Part shown: piece by piece, positions 6,189-51,138 of the stretch
How the letters are laid out: every line of letters begins with the position of its first letter
Numbering within the stretch: position 1 is the stretch's first letter
Source of the DNA: Armatimonadota bacterium
GTDB taxonomy: Bacteria; Armatimonadota; Hebobacteria; GCA-020354555; CP070648
Length of the DNA stretch: 52,386 nucleotides
Direction of reading: 5' to 3'
NCBI GenBank assembly: GCA_035527535.1
Contig: DATLAK010000067.1
Span: 1-52,386 of the forward strand
Program-made: the position numbers and the translations under genes
The notes under the pieces: model-generated
What the model saw: only the letters and a program-made list of their open reading frames with translations
What the model was told of the DNA's origin: nothing
Database searches by the model: none

Positions 6189-6434
6189 TTGGCGTCGGGA
6201 TCGGCAATCTCAAAGCGGAGCGCCGCCGGGCCGCGGCGGCCGTCGGTGGTAGCGCGCATCCGCCAGTTCCTAGTGGAGGCCTGGCTGGAGCTGCAGAAGG
6301 TGCTGTGGCCGTCGAAAGAGGAGGCTATCAGGTTCACCCTGGTGGTGGTCGCCGTCATCATGGTCGTCGCGTTGTTCATCTACATCTGCGACCTGGTGCT
6401 GACGCAACTGAGTCACCCGCTGTTCAATCTCTAG
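6189..6434 (+). CDS. secE: Preprotein translocase subunit SecE
   Basis: SecE is the essential clamp subunit of the SecYEG channel in the inner membrane. The 81-aa product has the family pattern: a short basic N-terminus, the amphipathic VARIRQFLVEAWLELQKVLWPSKEEAI segment, then one transmembrane helix (FTLVVVAVIMVVALFIYICDL). The start is TTG at 6189, supported by AAGGGAG about nine bases upstream; there is no in-frame ATG ahead of the conserved region. It lies between rpmG and nusG. Confidence 0.93.
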   Translation: MASGSAISKRSAAGPRRPSVVARIRQFLVEAWLELQKVLWPSKEEAIRFTLVVVAVIMVVALFIYICDLVLTQLSHPLFNL

Positions 6435-6446
6435 CCCGCGGAAACT

Positions 6447-7055
6447 ATGAGCGACCAGGAACACGAGCAGGCGCAAGCGCCGGACGAGGGCATCGCCGCC
6501 CCCATCAGCATGGAGCCTGCGCGCGGAAAGCGGTGGTACGTGGTGCACACGTTCACCGGGCATGAGAACAAGGTGAAGGCGAGCATCGAGCGCCGCGCTG
6601 TCGCCCACGGGTTGGGCGACAAGCTCGGACGCATCCTGGTGCTGACGGAGGAGGAACTGCGGGGCACCAGGCGCGGCAAGCGCCAGGTGCGCAAGCACAA
6701 GCTGTTCCCCGGCTACGTTATCATCGAGATGGAGCTTGACGACCAGACGCAGCACCTTGTGCGCAGCACCGCCGGCGTTACCGGGTTCATCGGGCCCGGC
6801 CGGCAACCGGTGGCGCTGGAGCGGCAGGAGATCGACAGCATCCTGGCGACGCTGGGCGGCGAGGAGGCCCCGCGCATGCGGGTGGCCTTCGAGCGCGGCG
6901 ACATGATGCGCGTGATCTCGGGGCCGTTCGAGAACTTCCACGGTCGCATTGAGGATATCAATGTCGCCAAAGAGAAGCTGACCCTGCTGATCTCCATCTT
7001 CGGGCGGGATACGCCGGTGGAGGTGGACTTCGCCGATGTCGAGAAACTGCAATAG
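6447..7055 (+). CDS. nusG: Transcription termination/antitermination factor NusG
   Basis: NusG binds RNA polymerase and couples transcription to translation or Rho. The 202-aa protein has an acidic, variable N-terminal tail of about 25 residues, then the NGN domain beginning KRWYVVHTFTGHENKVKASI, with LFPGYVIIEMELDDQT. The C-terminal KOW domain contains FERGDMMRVISGPFENFHGRIEDIN. The ATG at 6447 lies 12 bases after secE. Confidence 0.97.
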   Translation: MSDQEHEQAQAPDEGIAAPISMEPARGKRWYVVHTFTGHENKVKASIERRAVAHGLGDKLGRILVLTEEELRGTRRGKRQVRKHKLFPGYVIIEMELDDQTQHLVRSTAGVTGFIGPGRQPVALERQEIDSILATLGGEEAPRMRVAFERGDMMRVISGPFENFHGRIEDINVAKEKLTLLISIFGRDTPVEVDFADVEKLQ

Positions 7056-7070
7056 ACCGGTTAGCGAGTC

Positions 7071-7496
7071 ATGGCTAAGAAGATCAAGACCGTAGTGAAG
7101 CTGCAGATAGAGGCGGGAAAGGCTACCGGCGGGCCGCCGGTGGGGCCGGCGCTCGCGCCCCACATCAGGAACTTGATGGAATTCATCAAGGCCTACAACC
7201 ACGAGACCGCGTCGCAGGTCGGCAGCGTGGTGCCGGTCGAGGTCACGGTCTACGAGGATCGCTCGTTCACCTTGGTCCTCAAGACGCCGCCGGCGGCCCA
7301 ATTGCTGCGCCAGGCGGCGGGCCTGGAAAAGGGCGGGGGAGCGGCCGGGCGCGAGCAGGCGGGCCAGGTGACGCGGGCGCAGGTGCGCCAGATCGCAGAA
7401 ACCAAGCTGCGCGATCTCAATGCCAACGACCTCGAGAGCGCGATGCGGGTGGTGGAGGGCACGGCGCGCAGCATGGGCATCGCGGTGGTGGACTAG
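7071..7496 (+). CDS. rplK: 50S ribosomal protein L11
   Basis: L11 forms the base of the GTPase-associated region with 23S rRNA helices 43/44. The 141-aa protein has the classic [28 protein letters not shown] start. The middle of the C-terminal domain (about residues 85-105) carries a Gly/Ala-rich stretch, [23 protein letters not shown], where most L11 proteins have KGSG(K)PN. It ends in the normal [12 protein letters not shown]. It lies 15 bases after nusG and precedes rplA. Confidence 0.97.
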
Positions 7497-9491: not shown

Positions 9492-10076
9492 GTGGGCGCG
9501 CTCGCTACCGGCGCGCCCGGAGCGGCCGCCTTGAGGGTTTCCGACGAGTTCGAGCAGGCGCTGAGCAAGTTCCGTCAGGTGCTGCGGACGGGGTGCTGGA
9601 CGCTCATCAACTGCGGCGCCTCCAAGTACCGCTGCCAGGCCTTCAAGGAGTCCAGGAGCTGCTTCGACTATCCGGTCACCGCGTGCTGCGACGTCAACCG
9701 CAGGCGCTGCGTGAGCTGCCCCGTTTTCATCCACCTGGTCGAGCTGCCCAAGTGCCGCCGGCGCGTGCTCGTAACCACCGATAGCCTGCGCATCGAGGCC
9801 GATTTCCACTGCCCGGTGGGGATGCGCTTGCTGGATGCCCTGAACGCCGAAGAGCGGGAGTTCATCGCGCTCACCGACGCGCGCGTCACCGGCCTGGGAG
9901 GAAATGGCGAGCAACGTGAGGTGCCATTCATGGCGCTGAGCCGCGACCGCATCCACGCGCTGGTGCCGCTGGCGGGTGACGACGAGGCGCAGCGGCTGGG
10001 CGCGGCGGACGACGCCGAGGTGCTCGCCGCCCTGGGTGGTGAGGGCAACGGCGCGCCGTCGCCGCAATCGGGCTAA
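9492..10076 (+). CDS. Uncharacterised Cys-rich protein with a DUF6812-like C-terminus
   Basis: I do not recognise a function. The protein is up to 194 aa from GTG at 9492; an in-frame TTG at 9531 is an equally plausible start. Residues about 34-88 hold ten cysteines, in a pattern including GCW, NCGASKYRC, SCFDY, TACCDVNRRRC and SCPVF, which suggests a metal-binding or disulfide-rich module. The C-terminal half (VTTDSLRIEADFHCPVGMRLLDALNAEEREFIALTDARV...HALVPL) resembles DUF6812-type domains as I remember them; I could not confirm this by search. It follows rplL by 138 bases on the same strand, in the position where rpoB usually lies, and is convergent with the next gene. Confidence 0.65.
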   Translation: MGALATGAPGAAALRVSDEFEQALSKFRQVLRTGCWTLINCGASKYRCQAFKESRSCFDYPVTACCDVNRRRCVSCPVFIHLVELPKCRRRVLVTTDSLRIEADFHCPVGMRLLDALNAEEREFIALTDARVTGLGGNGEQREVPFMALSRDRIHALVPLAGDDEAQRLGAADDAEVLAALGGEGNGAPSPQSG

Positions 10077-17598: not shown

Positions 17599-17879
17599 GC
17601 TCCCTGGAGCGGCACGATGGTGAGGGGATCCGCTGCCTGCAATTAGGCGGGCCGGTGACATTCAACTACTGCCGGCGGGCCAACCGCGGCCTGCCGTGCA
17701 AGCTCGTGGTCGGCTGCTGGCAGGGGCGCATAGAGGCGCTCGCGTTCCTGGCCGAGCATTTCACGGCTGAGCAACTGCGAGCGGCCTTGGAGCCGGCTCC
17801 AGGGGGCAAGCTGGAGCGGCTGATCGGCCTGGTCGAGCGCACCCGGGCCGAGCTAGAGGCCGCCGGTGGTGATCGCTAG
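17595..17879 (+). CDS. Small four-Cys protein coupled to cbiO
   Basis: The function is unknown. The 94-aa protein starts at an ATG overlapping the cbiO stop (ATGA) and ends with its TAG overlapping the tatD stop. Cys14 (RCLQLGGPVTF), Cys26 (YCRRANRGLPC), Cys35 and Cys41 (GCWQGR) lie in its N-terminal half, a spacing that could bind a metal or Fe-S cluster. The rest is helical and charged. I recall similar small GGPVTFxYCR...LPC...CW proteins in other bacteria but could not check. Tight coupling to a Co/Ni importer suggests a metal-handling role; this is inference. Confidence 0.7.
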   Translation: MSSLERHDGEGIRCLQLGGPVTFNYCRRANRGLPCKLVVGCWQGRIEALAFLAEHFTAEQLRAALEPAPGGKLERLIGLVERTRAELEAAGGDR

Positions 17880-18703
17880 CCCGCCAACTCCGGGAAGCAC
17901 GCGGCGGCATTGGCGGTGGTGATCTGGGCCACCTCCGCCGCCGTCACCCCCCAGCACTGCGCGACCGCCGCGGCGATGAGCGGCAGGTATGCCGGCTCAT
18001 TGGGCTCGCCGCGGTGCGGGTGCGGGGCGAGGTAGGGGCAGTCCGTCTCCAGCAGCACGCGCTCGCGAGGCAGGCCCCGGACGATGGCGCGCAGGCGCTC
18101 AGCGCTGCGAAAAGTCACCGGGCCGGCGATGCCGATGTAGAGCCCTATCTCGACCGCGCGCCGGGCGATATCGGCGTCACCGGAGAAACAGTGCAGGACC
18201 CCGCGCCGGCGTTCGCCCTCAGCCCAGATCGCCAGCACCTCCTGGTGGGCGTCGCGCGAATGCACGATTACGGGCAGGTCGAGCTCCGCGGCCAGGGCCA
18301 GGTGCGCGCGGAAGGCGGCGGCTTGCGCGTCACGCGGGGAGCGGTCGCGGTAGAAGTCGAGGCCGGTCTCGCCGATGGCGACCGCTCGCGGCAGAGTCGC
18401 CAGGCGGCGCAGCTCGGCCAGCGCCTCCGGCCCCACGCACGAGGCATCGTGGGGATGGATCCCCGGCGCGTGCCACACGCGCTCATCAGTCGCCGCCAGG
18501 CGGGCGCCGCTGGCGCTGGTGGCAAGGTCGAAGCCGACGGTAATAATGCGCCCCACGCCGGCGGCGGCGGCCCGCGCTATCGGCGCGGATGTGGCACAGG
18601 CGCCCTCGCCTGTGATTCCGGGAGCACAGCCGAGGCGGCTGTGCCACAAGTCCGGGTGGGTGAGGTGGGCGTGAGTATCGGTGAGACCGACGCCGGCGCT
18701 CAC
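17876..18703 (-). CDS. tatD: TatD-family metal-dependent hydrolase with an in-frame repeat insertion
   Basis: TatD proteins are TIM-barrel metallohydrolases with 3'-5' DNase activity in characterised members. The start is GTG at 18703, overlapping the stop of the upstream lipoprotein gene (GTGA), and gives 275 aa. Motifs are DTHAHL, GIHPHDAS, GETGLDFYRDRS, VIVHSRDAH, LHCFSGD and LLETDCPYLAP. Between DTHAHLTHPDL and the helix SAPIARAAAAGVGRII there are 19 extra residues, WHSRLGCAPGITGEGACAT, encoded exactly by the 57-bp element at 18591-18647. Without it the protein would be 256 aa, the usual family size. All catalytic residues remain, so activity may survive. Confidence 0.93.
   Translation of the reverse strand: MSAGVGLTDTHAHLTHPDLWHSRLGCAPGITGEGACATSAPIARAAAAGVGRIITVGFDLATSASGARLAATDERVWHAPGIHPHDASCVGPEALAELRRLATLPRAVAIGETGLDFYRDRSPRDAQAAAFRAHLALAAELDLPVIVHSRDAHQEVLAIWAEGERRRGVLHCFSGDADIARRAVEIGLYIGIAGPVTFRSAERLRAIVRGLPRERVLLETDCPYLAPHPHRGEPNEPAYLPLIAAAVAQCWGVTAAEVAQITTANAAACFPELAG
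18591..18647. repeat. 57-bp REP-doublet (REPIN-like) element inside tatD
   Basis: The element reads GTGG, a hairpin CACAGGCG-CCCT-CGCCTGTG (18595-18614), a linker ATTCCGGGAG (18615-18624), a second hairpin CACAGCCG-AGG-CGGCTGTG (18625-18643), then CCAC. The GTGG ends and outer arms (GTGGCACAG, CTGTGCCAC) make it an inverted REP pair. It has the same length, layout and GGGAG linker end as 49771-49827. At 57 bp it adds 19 codons without breaking tatD. Confidence 0.85.
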
Positions 18704-21037: not shown

Positions 21038-21877
21038 CTACGCGATCTCGAGGGCGATATCCAGCGCCGGCGCGGAATGGGTGAGCGCACCAACAGAGAT
21101 AAGGTCCACCCCGGTCTCCGCGATTGCCCGAACCGTTTCCAGGGTCACGCCTCCGCTCGCTTCGGTCAGCGCGCGCCCGCGCGCAAGCTCGACCGCGGCG
21201 CGCAGGTCTTGGCGGCTCATGTTGTCCAGCAGCAAGGCATCGGCGCCGCGCTCCAGGGCCTCTTTCACCTGCGCCAGGGTCTCGACCTCCACCTGCACCT
21301 TCATCCCGTGGGGCACATCGGCGCGCGCGGCTGCCACCGCGGCGGCAATGCCTCCCGCCGGCCGCAGGTGATTGTCCTTGATGAGCACGCCATCGAAGAG
21401 GCCGAAGCGATGATTGGCGCCGCCCCCGAGCGCAACCGCCCACTTGTCGAGACAGCGCAGGCCGGGGGCGGTCTTGCGGGTGTCGAGGATGCGGGCGGTG
21501 GTACCCGCGACGGCATCAACGTAGCGGCGCGTGAGCGTCGCAATGCCCGACATGCGCTGCAGGAAGTTGAGGGCGGTCCTTTCGGCCCCCAGCAGGGCGC
21601 GCGTGTAGCCGGCGACCTCGGCCAGCGCCGTTCCCGCCGGCAGCGCGTCGCCGTCGGCCGCCAGAACGCTGACCTCGATTCGCGAGTCAACCTCGTGGAA
21701 AGCCATGCGCGCGACCTCGAGGCCGGCGATGACTCCGGCCTGCCGGGCGACGACCACACCCGACCCTCGGGCGGCGGCAGGCACCACCGCCTGGCTGGTG
21801 ATGTCACCGCGACCGAGGTCCTCGCGCAAGGCGCGTCGCACGATTTCGACTACCATGGCCGGCGTGGGAGCTGTCAT
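21038..21877 (-). CDS. nadC: Nicotinate-nucleotide pyrophosphorylase (quinolinate phosphoribosyltransferase)
   Basis: NadC converts quinolinate and PRPP to nicotinate mononucleotide, the third step of de novo NAD synthesis. The 279-aa protein shows LREDLGRGDITSQAV, ERTALNFLQRMSGIAT, DTRKTAPGLRCLDKWAVALGGGANHRFGL and VLIKDNHL, all canonical. The ATG at 21877 is placed by family length. It lies five bases after nadX, in the order nadA-nadX-nadC, so the whole pathway is in one transcript. Confidence 0.96.
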   Translation of the reverse strand: MTAPTPAMVVEIVRRALREDLGRGDITSQAVVPAAARGSGVVVARQAGVIAGLEVARMAFHEVDSRIEVSVLAADGDALPAGTALAEVAGYTRALLGAERTALNFLQRMSGIATLTRRYVDAVAGTTARILDTRKTAPGLRCLDKWAVALGGGANHRFGLFDGVLIKDNHLRPAGGIAAAVAAARADVPHGMKVQVEVETLAQVKEALERGADALLLDNMSRQDLRAAVELARGRALTEASGGVTLETVRAIAETGVDLISVGALTHSAPALDIALEIA

Positions 21878-48918: not shown

Positions 48919-49713
48919 TCAATCCGAGATTCCCTGGGCTGCCGCCTTCCTCGCTAGGCGCAGCACGGCAACGTACGACTTGGTGAGAGTACCGCCGTTT
49001 CTTTCGATCAGCGCAGCGATCTCTGCAAACAGCCGATTCCTGACCTTCTCGGGCAGGAGACGATGGTCGGGGTACGTGTTAAGCAGATTCAGGTAGCTGC
49101 GGGTGTCGTAAGTGACCGACCATGGATAGCGCCTCTCTATTGCATCGTCAAAAAGGTCCTCTCCACTCTCGGCGACTGATCCGCTGGACGGCCCCTCCGG
49201 GGCGTCGGCTGCCGACCGCGGCAGACATCGCTCGTAGATGCTCTGCAACTCCCTGAAGAACGCTGAATCAGAATACGGGGATGCGTCGGCGTTGCGGAAC
49301 ATGGCAAGCGCGCCCGACGGTTTCAGGGCGGCGGCGGACTTGCTGTAACGAAGCCCTGGCGTTATCCATTTGAACGCGTCGGCTACGATCACGAGATCGA
49401 AGACCTCTGGCTCAAGCGGCCAGTCTTCAAATGTGGTTACTCGGACTTCCGCTCGTGGATATGCACTCAGCTTGTTTGCCGCGAGTGCCGCCAGGTTCGG
49501 GCCCGGTTCCAGGCACAGCATCGAGTAACCGCGCCGAGCGAAGGACTCACTGGCCTTCCCGGTGCCGCACCCGATTTCCAGAATCGCACCGCCGGTCGGA
49601 ATGCCCGATAGTGAGATGGCGGCATCTATCAGCTCGGGCGGGTACTGTGGCCGCGCCTCATCGTACAATGCCGCTATTCCGTCAAAGATCGTTCTGCCGA
49701 GTGTGCGATCCAT
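48919..49713 (-). CDS. Class I SAM-dependent methyltransferase
   Basis: A 264-aa Methyltransf_11-type enzyme with motif I ILEIGCGTGKASESFARRG, the acidic CLEPGP, and the VFDLVIVADAFKWI segment. Related proteins often begin FDGIAALYDEARPQYPPELID, as here. The substrate is unknown. Base composition is visibly lower in GC than the neighbouring genes, codons such as TCT, GGA and AGG are more common, and the gene lies between imperfect inverted repeats. All of this suggests acquisition by transfer. The ATG at 49713 has no strong Shine-Dalgarno. Confidence 0.88.
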   Translation of the reverse strand: MDRTLGRTIFDGIAALYDEARPQYPPELIDAAISLSGIPTGGAILEIGCGTGKASESFARRGYSMLCLEPGPNLAALAANKLSAYPRAEVRVTTFEDWPLEPEVFDLVIVADAFKWITPGLRYSKSAAALKPSGALAMFRNADASPYSDSAFFRELQSIYERCLPRSAADAPEGPSSGSVAESGEDLFDDAIERRYPWSVTYDTRSYLNLLNTYPDHRLLPEKVRNRLFAEIAALIERNGGTLTKSYVAVLRLARKAAAQGISD

Positions 49714-49770: not shown

Positions 49771-49827
49771 GTAGGGGCGTGATTCATCACGCCCGCTGTG
49801 GGAGGGCGCAATGAATTGCGCCCCTAC
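49771..49827. repeat. 57-bp REP-doublet (REPIN-like) element
   Basis: GTAG (49771-49774), hairpin GGGCGTGAT-TC-ATCACGCCC (49775-49794), linker GCTGTGGGA, hairpin GGGCGCAAT-GA-ATTGCGCCC (49804-49823), CTAC (49824-49827). The 5' GTAG tetranucleotide next to a hairpin, present in both orientations, is the hallmark of REP sequences mobilised by RAYT transposases. It has the same 57-bp length, and the same GGGAG at positions 30-34, as the element in tatD. Confidence 0.85.
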
Positions 49828-49869: not shown

Positions 49870-51138
49870 CTAACCCAGGAACGTGGTCACGACTAGGGCC
49901 AGCGTGAGGGCGATGACGATGACGGCGGTCGCCCAGGCGATGAAGTTGAACGCCCGCGAGTTGCGATACGGGCCCATCAAGGCGGGGTTATTGATGAGCA
50001 CCAGCATGAAGAGAAGCACGAACGGCAGCAGAATGCCGTTGGCGACCTGGGAGAGATACATAATGTGGAGCAGGGGCGCCCGCGGCAGCAGCACCAGCCC
50101 GGCGCCGATCACGATGAGGCCGGTGTAGAGACCGTAGAACTGGGGGGCCTCGCGCAAGCTCTGGTTGACGCCGCGTTCCCAGCCCATGCCCTCGCACACC
50201 GAGTAGGCGGTGGCCAGGGGCAGGATCGAGGCGGCGAAGAGGCTGGCGTTGAGCAGGCCGAAGGCGAAGAGCTGCGAGCAGTAGCGCCCGGCCAGCGGTT
50301 GCAGCGCCAGGGCGGCGTCTTCGACGGTGCGGATGGGGATATGGTTCGCGTAGAGCGTGGCGCCGGTGGTCAGGAGAATGAAGCCGGCGACGATGACGGC
50401 GACGATGCAGCCGGTGATGACGTCAATGCGGCAATACCCGTAGTCGCGCGCGGATACGCCCTTGTCCACCACTGCGGATTGCAGGTAGAACTGCATCCAC
50501 GGCGCGATGGTGGTGCCGACGACGCCGATCAGCATGGTGACGAAGGCCGGCCGCAGCGACAGGGTGGGGGTGACGGTGTGATGCAGCACCTGGCCCCAAT
50601 CGGGCCGCGCGAGAATGCCCGACAGGAAGTAGGAGACATAGAACAGACACGCGAGCAGGAAGACCTTCTCCACCTGCCGATAGCTGCCCTTGACGACCAG
50701 CCACCACACGAAAAGGGCGCCCAGCGGCACCGCCAGGTACTTGCTCACGCCGAAGATCTCTCCGCTCGCCGCCAGACCGGAGAACTCCGCGGTCGTGTTG
50801 GCAAGATTGGCGACCAAGAGGCCGAGCATGAGGAAGAAGGTCAGCTTGACCCCGAAGTTCTCGCGAATGAGGTCGGCGAGGCCCTTGCCGGTGACCGCGC
50901 CCATGCGCGCGCACATCTCCTGCACGACGATGAGCGCGAAGGTGATGGGGACGAGCGACCACAGCAGGGCGTACCCGTACTGTGCGCCGGCGAGGGAATA
51001 GGTGGCGATGCCGCCGGCGTCGTTGTCCACATTGGCAGTGATGATGCCCGGCCCGACGATGGCGAGGAAGGCGATCAGCCCCGCCCAGGTGGGCCGGCGC
51101 AGCCAGCGCCGCCGATGCTCGGTAACGCCGCGGGTCAC
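49870..51138 (-). CDS. NRAMP-related divalent metal transporter, probably Mg2+ (NRMT-like)
   Basis: A 422-aa integral membrane protein with 11 to 12 hydrophobic helices and the LeuT-like NRAMP fold. The helix 1 metal motif is not DPGN but NVDNDAGGIATYS (Asp38, Asn39, Asp40). The helix 6 MPHN motif is replaced by TTIAPWMQFYLQS. Loss of the Met/Asn ligands for soft metals is typical of NRAMP-related Mg2+ transporters. The start is GTG 51138, overlapping the stop of an upstream gene with MgtE-type Mg-sensing domains. Mn2+ transport cannot be excluded. Confidence 0.87.
   Translation of the reverse strand: MTRGVTEHRRRWLRRPTWAGLIAFLAIVGPGIITANVDNDAGGIATYSLAGAQYGYALLWSLVPITFALIVVQEMCARMGAVTGKGLADLIRENFGVKLTFFLMLGLLVANLANTTAEFSGLAASGEIFGVSKYLAVPLGALFVWWLVVKGSYRQVEKVFLLACLFYVSYFLSGILARPDWGQVLHHTVTPTLSLRPAFVTMLIGVVGTTIAPWMQFYLQSAVVDKGVSARDYGYCRIDVITGCIVAVIVAGFILLTTGATLYANHIPIRTVEDAALALQPLAGRYCSQLFAFGLLNASLFAASILPLATAYSVCEGMGWERGVNQSLREAPQFYGLYTGLIVIGAGLVLLPRAPLLHIMYLSQVANGILLPFVLLFMLVLINNPALMGPYRNSRAFNFIAWATAVIVIALTLALVVTTFLG

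Follow-up and report, generated by a model that had tools for sequence, protein, structure and literature searches.

The tatD gene of this Armatimonadota genome carries a palindromic repeat that is read through in frame, which raises the question of where the repeat came from and what it means for the encoded protein. In the window, i.e., the whole stretch of 52,386 nt that was analysed, tatD occupies positions 17876-18703 of the minus strand and encodes, from a GTG start, a 275-residue TatD-family metal-dependent DNase, as indicated by Pfam (PF01026, TatD_DNase, E 3e-74), NCBIfam (TIGR00010, over the cut-off) and an AlphaFold model. The repeat spans 57 nt (18591-18647), from the third base of the Leu19 codon to the second base of the Thr38 codon, and is a REP doublet (REPIN), that is, a head-to-head dimer. 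As described in the initial annotation, it reads GTGG-CACAGGCGCCCTCGCCTGTG-ATTCCGGGAG-CACAGCCGAGGCGGCTGTG-CCAC and lies wholly within the minus-strand tatD frame, where translation confirmed that it encodes WHSRLGCAPGITGEGACAT. The first unit, on the plus strand, consists of a GTGG tag (18591-18594) and a 20-nt hairpin (18595-18614). A 10-nt spacer, read from the sequence (18615-18624), separates it from the second unit, on the minus strand, whose 19-nt hairpin (18625-18643, given above as read on the plus strand) is followed by a tag (18644-18647) that is CCAC on the plus and GTGG on the minus strand. Both hairpins were located by a hairpin-pattern search, which gave two matches in the window, both within the tatD element, with 0.00 expected from shuffled sequences. 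Their 8-bp stems and short loops fall within the stem range of the GTAG superfamily (6-13 bp). The dimer folds as a single long hairpin (RNA, -36 kcal/mol, z -4.5; DNA, z -5.9), and such a hairpin in DNA or RNA might slow translation. A second tagged doublet of 57 nt, with a different stem (GGGCGTGATTCATCACGCCC) and the arrangement GTAG-hairpin-spacer-hairpin-CTAC, is found in the window at 49771-49827, between ORFs 48919-49713 and 49870-51138.

Searching the MAG for the hairpin class returned 48 exact matches, compared with 0 in the reversed control, and a 60-bp query for the tatD element matched 45 places in the genome, 44 of them elsewhere than tatD. The other genomic copies on which the initial annotation had made its case depend are thus present, and some ten lie in frame within recognisable genes. 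Tags, doublets and degenerate copies were counted in the ~0.82 Mb around the copies. In this sample, 43 of the 48 hairpins carried a GTGG/GGAG/GTAG-type tag on exactly one side; over all units GTGG, the commonest 4-mer directly 5' of the hairpin, occurred 35 times, GGAG six times and GTAG four times. Tagged inverted doublets with any stem numbered 16 versus 0 in the reversed sequence, with the tags on the outside as in a REPIN, and included mixed dimers with other stems, e.g., GTAG-GGGCGCACGGCGTGCGCCC. A tag on one side only characterizes the GTAG REP superfamily, and the anatomy as a whole is that of this superfamily and of REPINs. Like the GTAG superfamily, the class is dispersed and mainly intergenic: 10 of 47 clusters lay inside predicted genes, compared with a coding density of 81%, which points to strong depletion of copies in genes as judged by a crude, home-made gene caller. 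Both tatD and tgt escaped this caller, and two of the cases it counted (C76 and C129) are marginal; the in-gene cases described below therefore rest on homology. A genome of the same family, G001, contains four exact hairpins of the tatD-element class versus 48 in the MAG, suggesting that the class either expanded in the lineage of the MAG or shrank in that of G001; when the gene context of these four copies was checked, none was clearly inside a conserved gene.

The search within the family covered one further genome, G001, whose TatD, at 76% protein identity, has no insert; the frame is conserved on both flanks. At this site, G001 reads DTHAHLTHPDYRGDPGLVARAATAGV and the window reads DTHAHLTHPDL-(19 residues)-SAPIARAAAAGV. 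The segment occurs in 0 of 76 other TatDs and, among these aligned sequences, no distant TatD was seen with an equivalent loop; the relatives are unoccupied, and the element was gained by the tatD gene of the MAG. A scan of genome contigs for TatD returned distant TatDs alone. The 19 alignment columns of the insert hold four residues in 74 of the 76 other proteins and three in the remaining two. It had been claimed that the element adds exactly 19 codons and that its excision would leave a TatD of normal size. The former is correct for the element itself but not for the gene, whose net gain relative to G001 is 48 nt, or 16 codons. The latter needs correction, since other TatDs have three or four residues in the insert columns and the excised product would therefore be 3-4 residues short of the usual beta1-alpha1 segment. 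In G001, the stretch from DTHAHL to GV measures 78 nt. A net gain of 48 nt from a 57-nt element suggests that 9 nt of host sequence were either displaced or lost nearby at a later time, as judged from one orthologue, that of G001, at 76% identity.

The DTHAHL metal motif precedes the insert and the remaining enzyme follows it, all in one frame, which shows that the segment is coding sequence rather than a leader. The insert begins six residues after the HxH metal-binding motif, in agreement with the proposed proximity to active-site histidines, and the metal-site residues D9, H11, H13, E112, H148, H171 and D221 are invariant in an alignment of 57 sequences. The AlphaFold model of TatD (57 sequences) has a mean pLDDT of 93.4 and matches the solved TatD structures 1j6o, 2gzx and 4p5u (best E 1.2e-27), with a TIM-barrel fold; residues 21-40, i.e., nearly all of the insert, have a mean pLDDT of 55-57. 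On the simplest reading of the model, the insert would be a disordered loop that TatD tolerates close to the active-site mouth. Low model confidence, together with the variety of unrelated host proteins, suggests that the segment is merely tolerated by TatD.

Coding-potential scans and homology identified further in-frame copies in trpA, tgt, pyrC, a csaB-like gene, valS, an aldolase/short-chain dehydrogenase gene and a phage portal gene. Copies are also in frame at the ends of cbiM (C-terminus) and cbiQ (near the N-terminus), and an M28 peptidase/FtsX protein carries one in frame, with one mismatch, in its signal-like N-terminal region. Fewer residues occupy the site of the copy in the G001 counterparts of trpA, tgt, pyrC, csaB and the FtsX protein; neither the portal gene nor the dehydrogenase yielded a close orthologue with an empty site. 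The REP-bearing linker of valS is five residues shorter than in G001, suggesting that the element replaced host sequence there or that the linker shrank. Translation of the repeat follows at least two different frames (TAGGGCAT-like and VAQPPSAV-like), and the net length changes at in-frame sites are 48, 69, 87, 24, 90, -15 and 36 nt. That these changes keep the frame is no evidence of mechanism, as any copy surviving in an intact gene has to do so. The proposal that this repeat family can create protein segments is supported by the orthologues without the segment and by the additional in-frame copies.

Two further observations concern these genes. Near position 9955 on the minus strand of L079 (G000:C4), the one-mismatch REP doublet encodes SIGALACVITAGAAML, which resembles the hydrophobic core of a signal peptide in the 1500-residue M28/FtsX protein; at this site, the hydrophobic stretch of G001 is a different and shorter one. 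A second palindromic motif (CTGAGC..GTCGAAGG type), with 7 and 5 matches on the two strands of 0.82 Mb and 0 in the reversed sequence, is in frame in valS (L111, G000:C149, 7948-10749) and tgt (L083, 1551-2765) and is read as LSGVEG, STSSG or LSSSKA.

We consider it highly likely that the tatD insert is a recent, tolerated REPIN insertion, namely a head-to-head dimer of the GTAG superfamily with GTGG tags. A 57-bp non-autonomous mobile element would have inserted recently into tatD, displacing ~9 nt of host sequence, and the gene would have survived because the length of the element is a multiple of three and the frame used contains no stop. TatD would have gained ~16 residues, forming a loop that leads from strand beta1 to helix alpha1, with an effect on the enzyme that is probably neutral or mildly costly. 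A REP-associated tyrosine transposase (Y1/HUH) that works on hairpins in single-stranded form could provide the movement of the element. The substrates of RAYT-type enzymes are single-stranded hairpins bearing a tag, and with GTGG as the tag, cleavage can be redirected to CC (PMC8266576); a RAYT may have moved the tatD element. The genome contains three Y1 transposase genes, two above the cut-off of NCBIfam NF047646 (REP-associated tyrosine transposase) and the third just below it, and no hairpin of the tatD-element class directly flanks any of the three. Upstream of the transposase gene at C149:26460-27086 lies a GTAG-tagged doublet whose stem belongs to another class. On L127 (G000:C149), at ~6365-7086, a REP-associated transposase gene follows a GTAG doublet, and the C-terminal codons of this gene (GWSEVGADLLIGPEGKGRAGMEPGPYGDDT) are an apparent further copy of the doublet, in frame. 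A REP-associated transposase ORF at 21211-21771 (contig positions; L125, G000:C61) is embedded in dense arrays of GGGCGCGGGGTTCTCCTAACCCCGCGGGGCCCGCG, a different repeat class.

Other origins and roles of the segment were weighed against a tolerated insertion. The segment could be a functional, selected addition, with the loop or the strong mRNA hairpin modulating TatD activity or translation, and both the position of the loop beside the HxH metal ligands and the strength of the RNA fold (-36 kcal/mol, z -4.5) speak for it. We nevertheless regard such selection as unlikely, as the loop is of low confidence in the AlphaFold model, the perfect stems suggest a recent event, and the same element class is found in different frames in unrelated proteins (trpA, pyrC, valS and csaB), as tolerance would predict. 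It is very improbable that metagenome assembly placed the repeat in tatD by error: although the genome is a 192-contig MAG with at least one hairpin copy exactly at a contig end (C49:1), the tatD copy lies 18.6 kb inside a 52-kb contig, its frame and both flanks match G001, and several independent in-frame cases on other contigs would all need frame-keeping artefacts. A GC-rich genome holds many chance inverted repeats, and the palindrome might have arisen within tatD by chance or local duplication rather than by insertion of a dispersed element, but the expectation of 0.00 in shuffles and the tag structure leave next to no probability for such an origin, and the 44 dispersed matches to the same 60 bp rule it out. 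We are also doubtful of a wider generalization, according to which REPINs of this lineage replace short stretches of host DNA instead of inserting cleanly and recurrently supply new segments, among them a signal peptide's hydrophobic core, to essential proteins.

With the REPIN in tatD and its counterparts, REP insertion in frame now covers a further bacterial lineage as well as core genes (valS, tgt, trpA, pyrC and tatD). The unoccupied orthologues in the same-family genome form a small natural data set on how REPs insert, which is informative because some sites seem to lack bases of the host. Annotators should be aware that an unusual loop in a protein of this kind may be a repeat that has been decoded.

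Palindromic repeats in frame in functional proteins are also a feature of the Rickettsia palindromic elements (RPEs). According to one survey (PMC3733652), RPE-4/6 carry CGTC tags and RPE-1 is longer, whereas the tatD element is GTGG-tagged; the tags GTGG, GGAG or GTAG rule out its assignment to the CGTC type of RPE. The tatD element works like an RPE but is not one. With the REPINs of Pseudomonas fluorescens (Bertels and Rainey, 2011, PMC3116915) it shares an inverted REP doublet that spreads as a unit and forms one long hairpin. The REPINs of SBW25 have a far higher copy number and are almost all extragenic (PMC3116915), whereas those of the MAG number in the tens, with about a fifth in genes. 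Di Nocera et al. (2013, PMC3733652) describe intragenic GTAG REPs lying in frame in many proteins from several species; most are dimers or groups and contribute 20-30 residues. Opitutus terrae has the most, its GTAG-20 family is mainly GTGG-tagged, and degeneration of the GTAG tag to GTGG is documented in the same source. The novelty is smaller than the initial annotation implied, since in-frame GTAG REPs had already been catalogued. GTAG REPs share with the tatD element a short perfect hairpin, a GTAG/GTGG tag at one end, head-to-head and mixed (hetero) dimers, and a mainly intergenic distribution with some copies in frame; the likeness of GTAG-20 of Opitutus terrae to the tatD element is one of description. 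The MAG represents a new host lineage, probably Armatimonadota, a placement suggested by TatDs of its phylum-mates, which resemble those of Zipacnadia and Hebobacteria records. As hosts it adds tatD, trpA, tgt and pyrC, which the text examined does not name, and tRNA synthetases are among the hosts in both.
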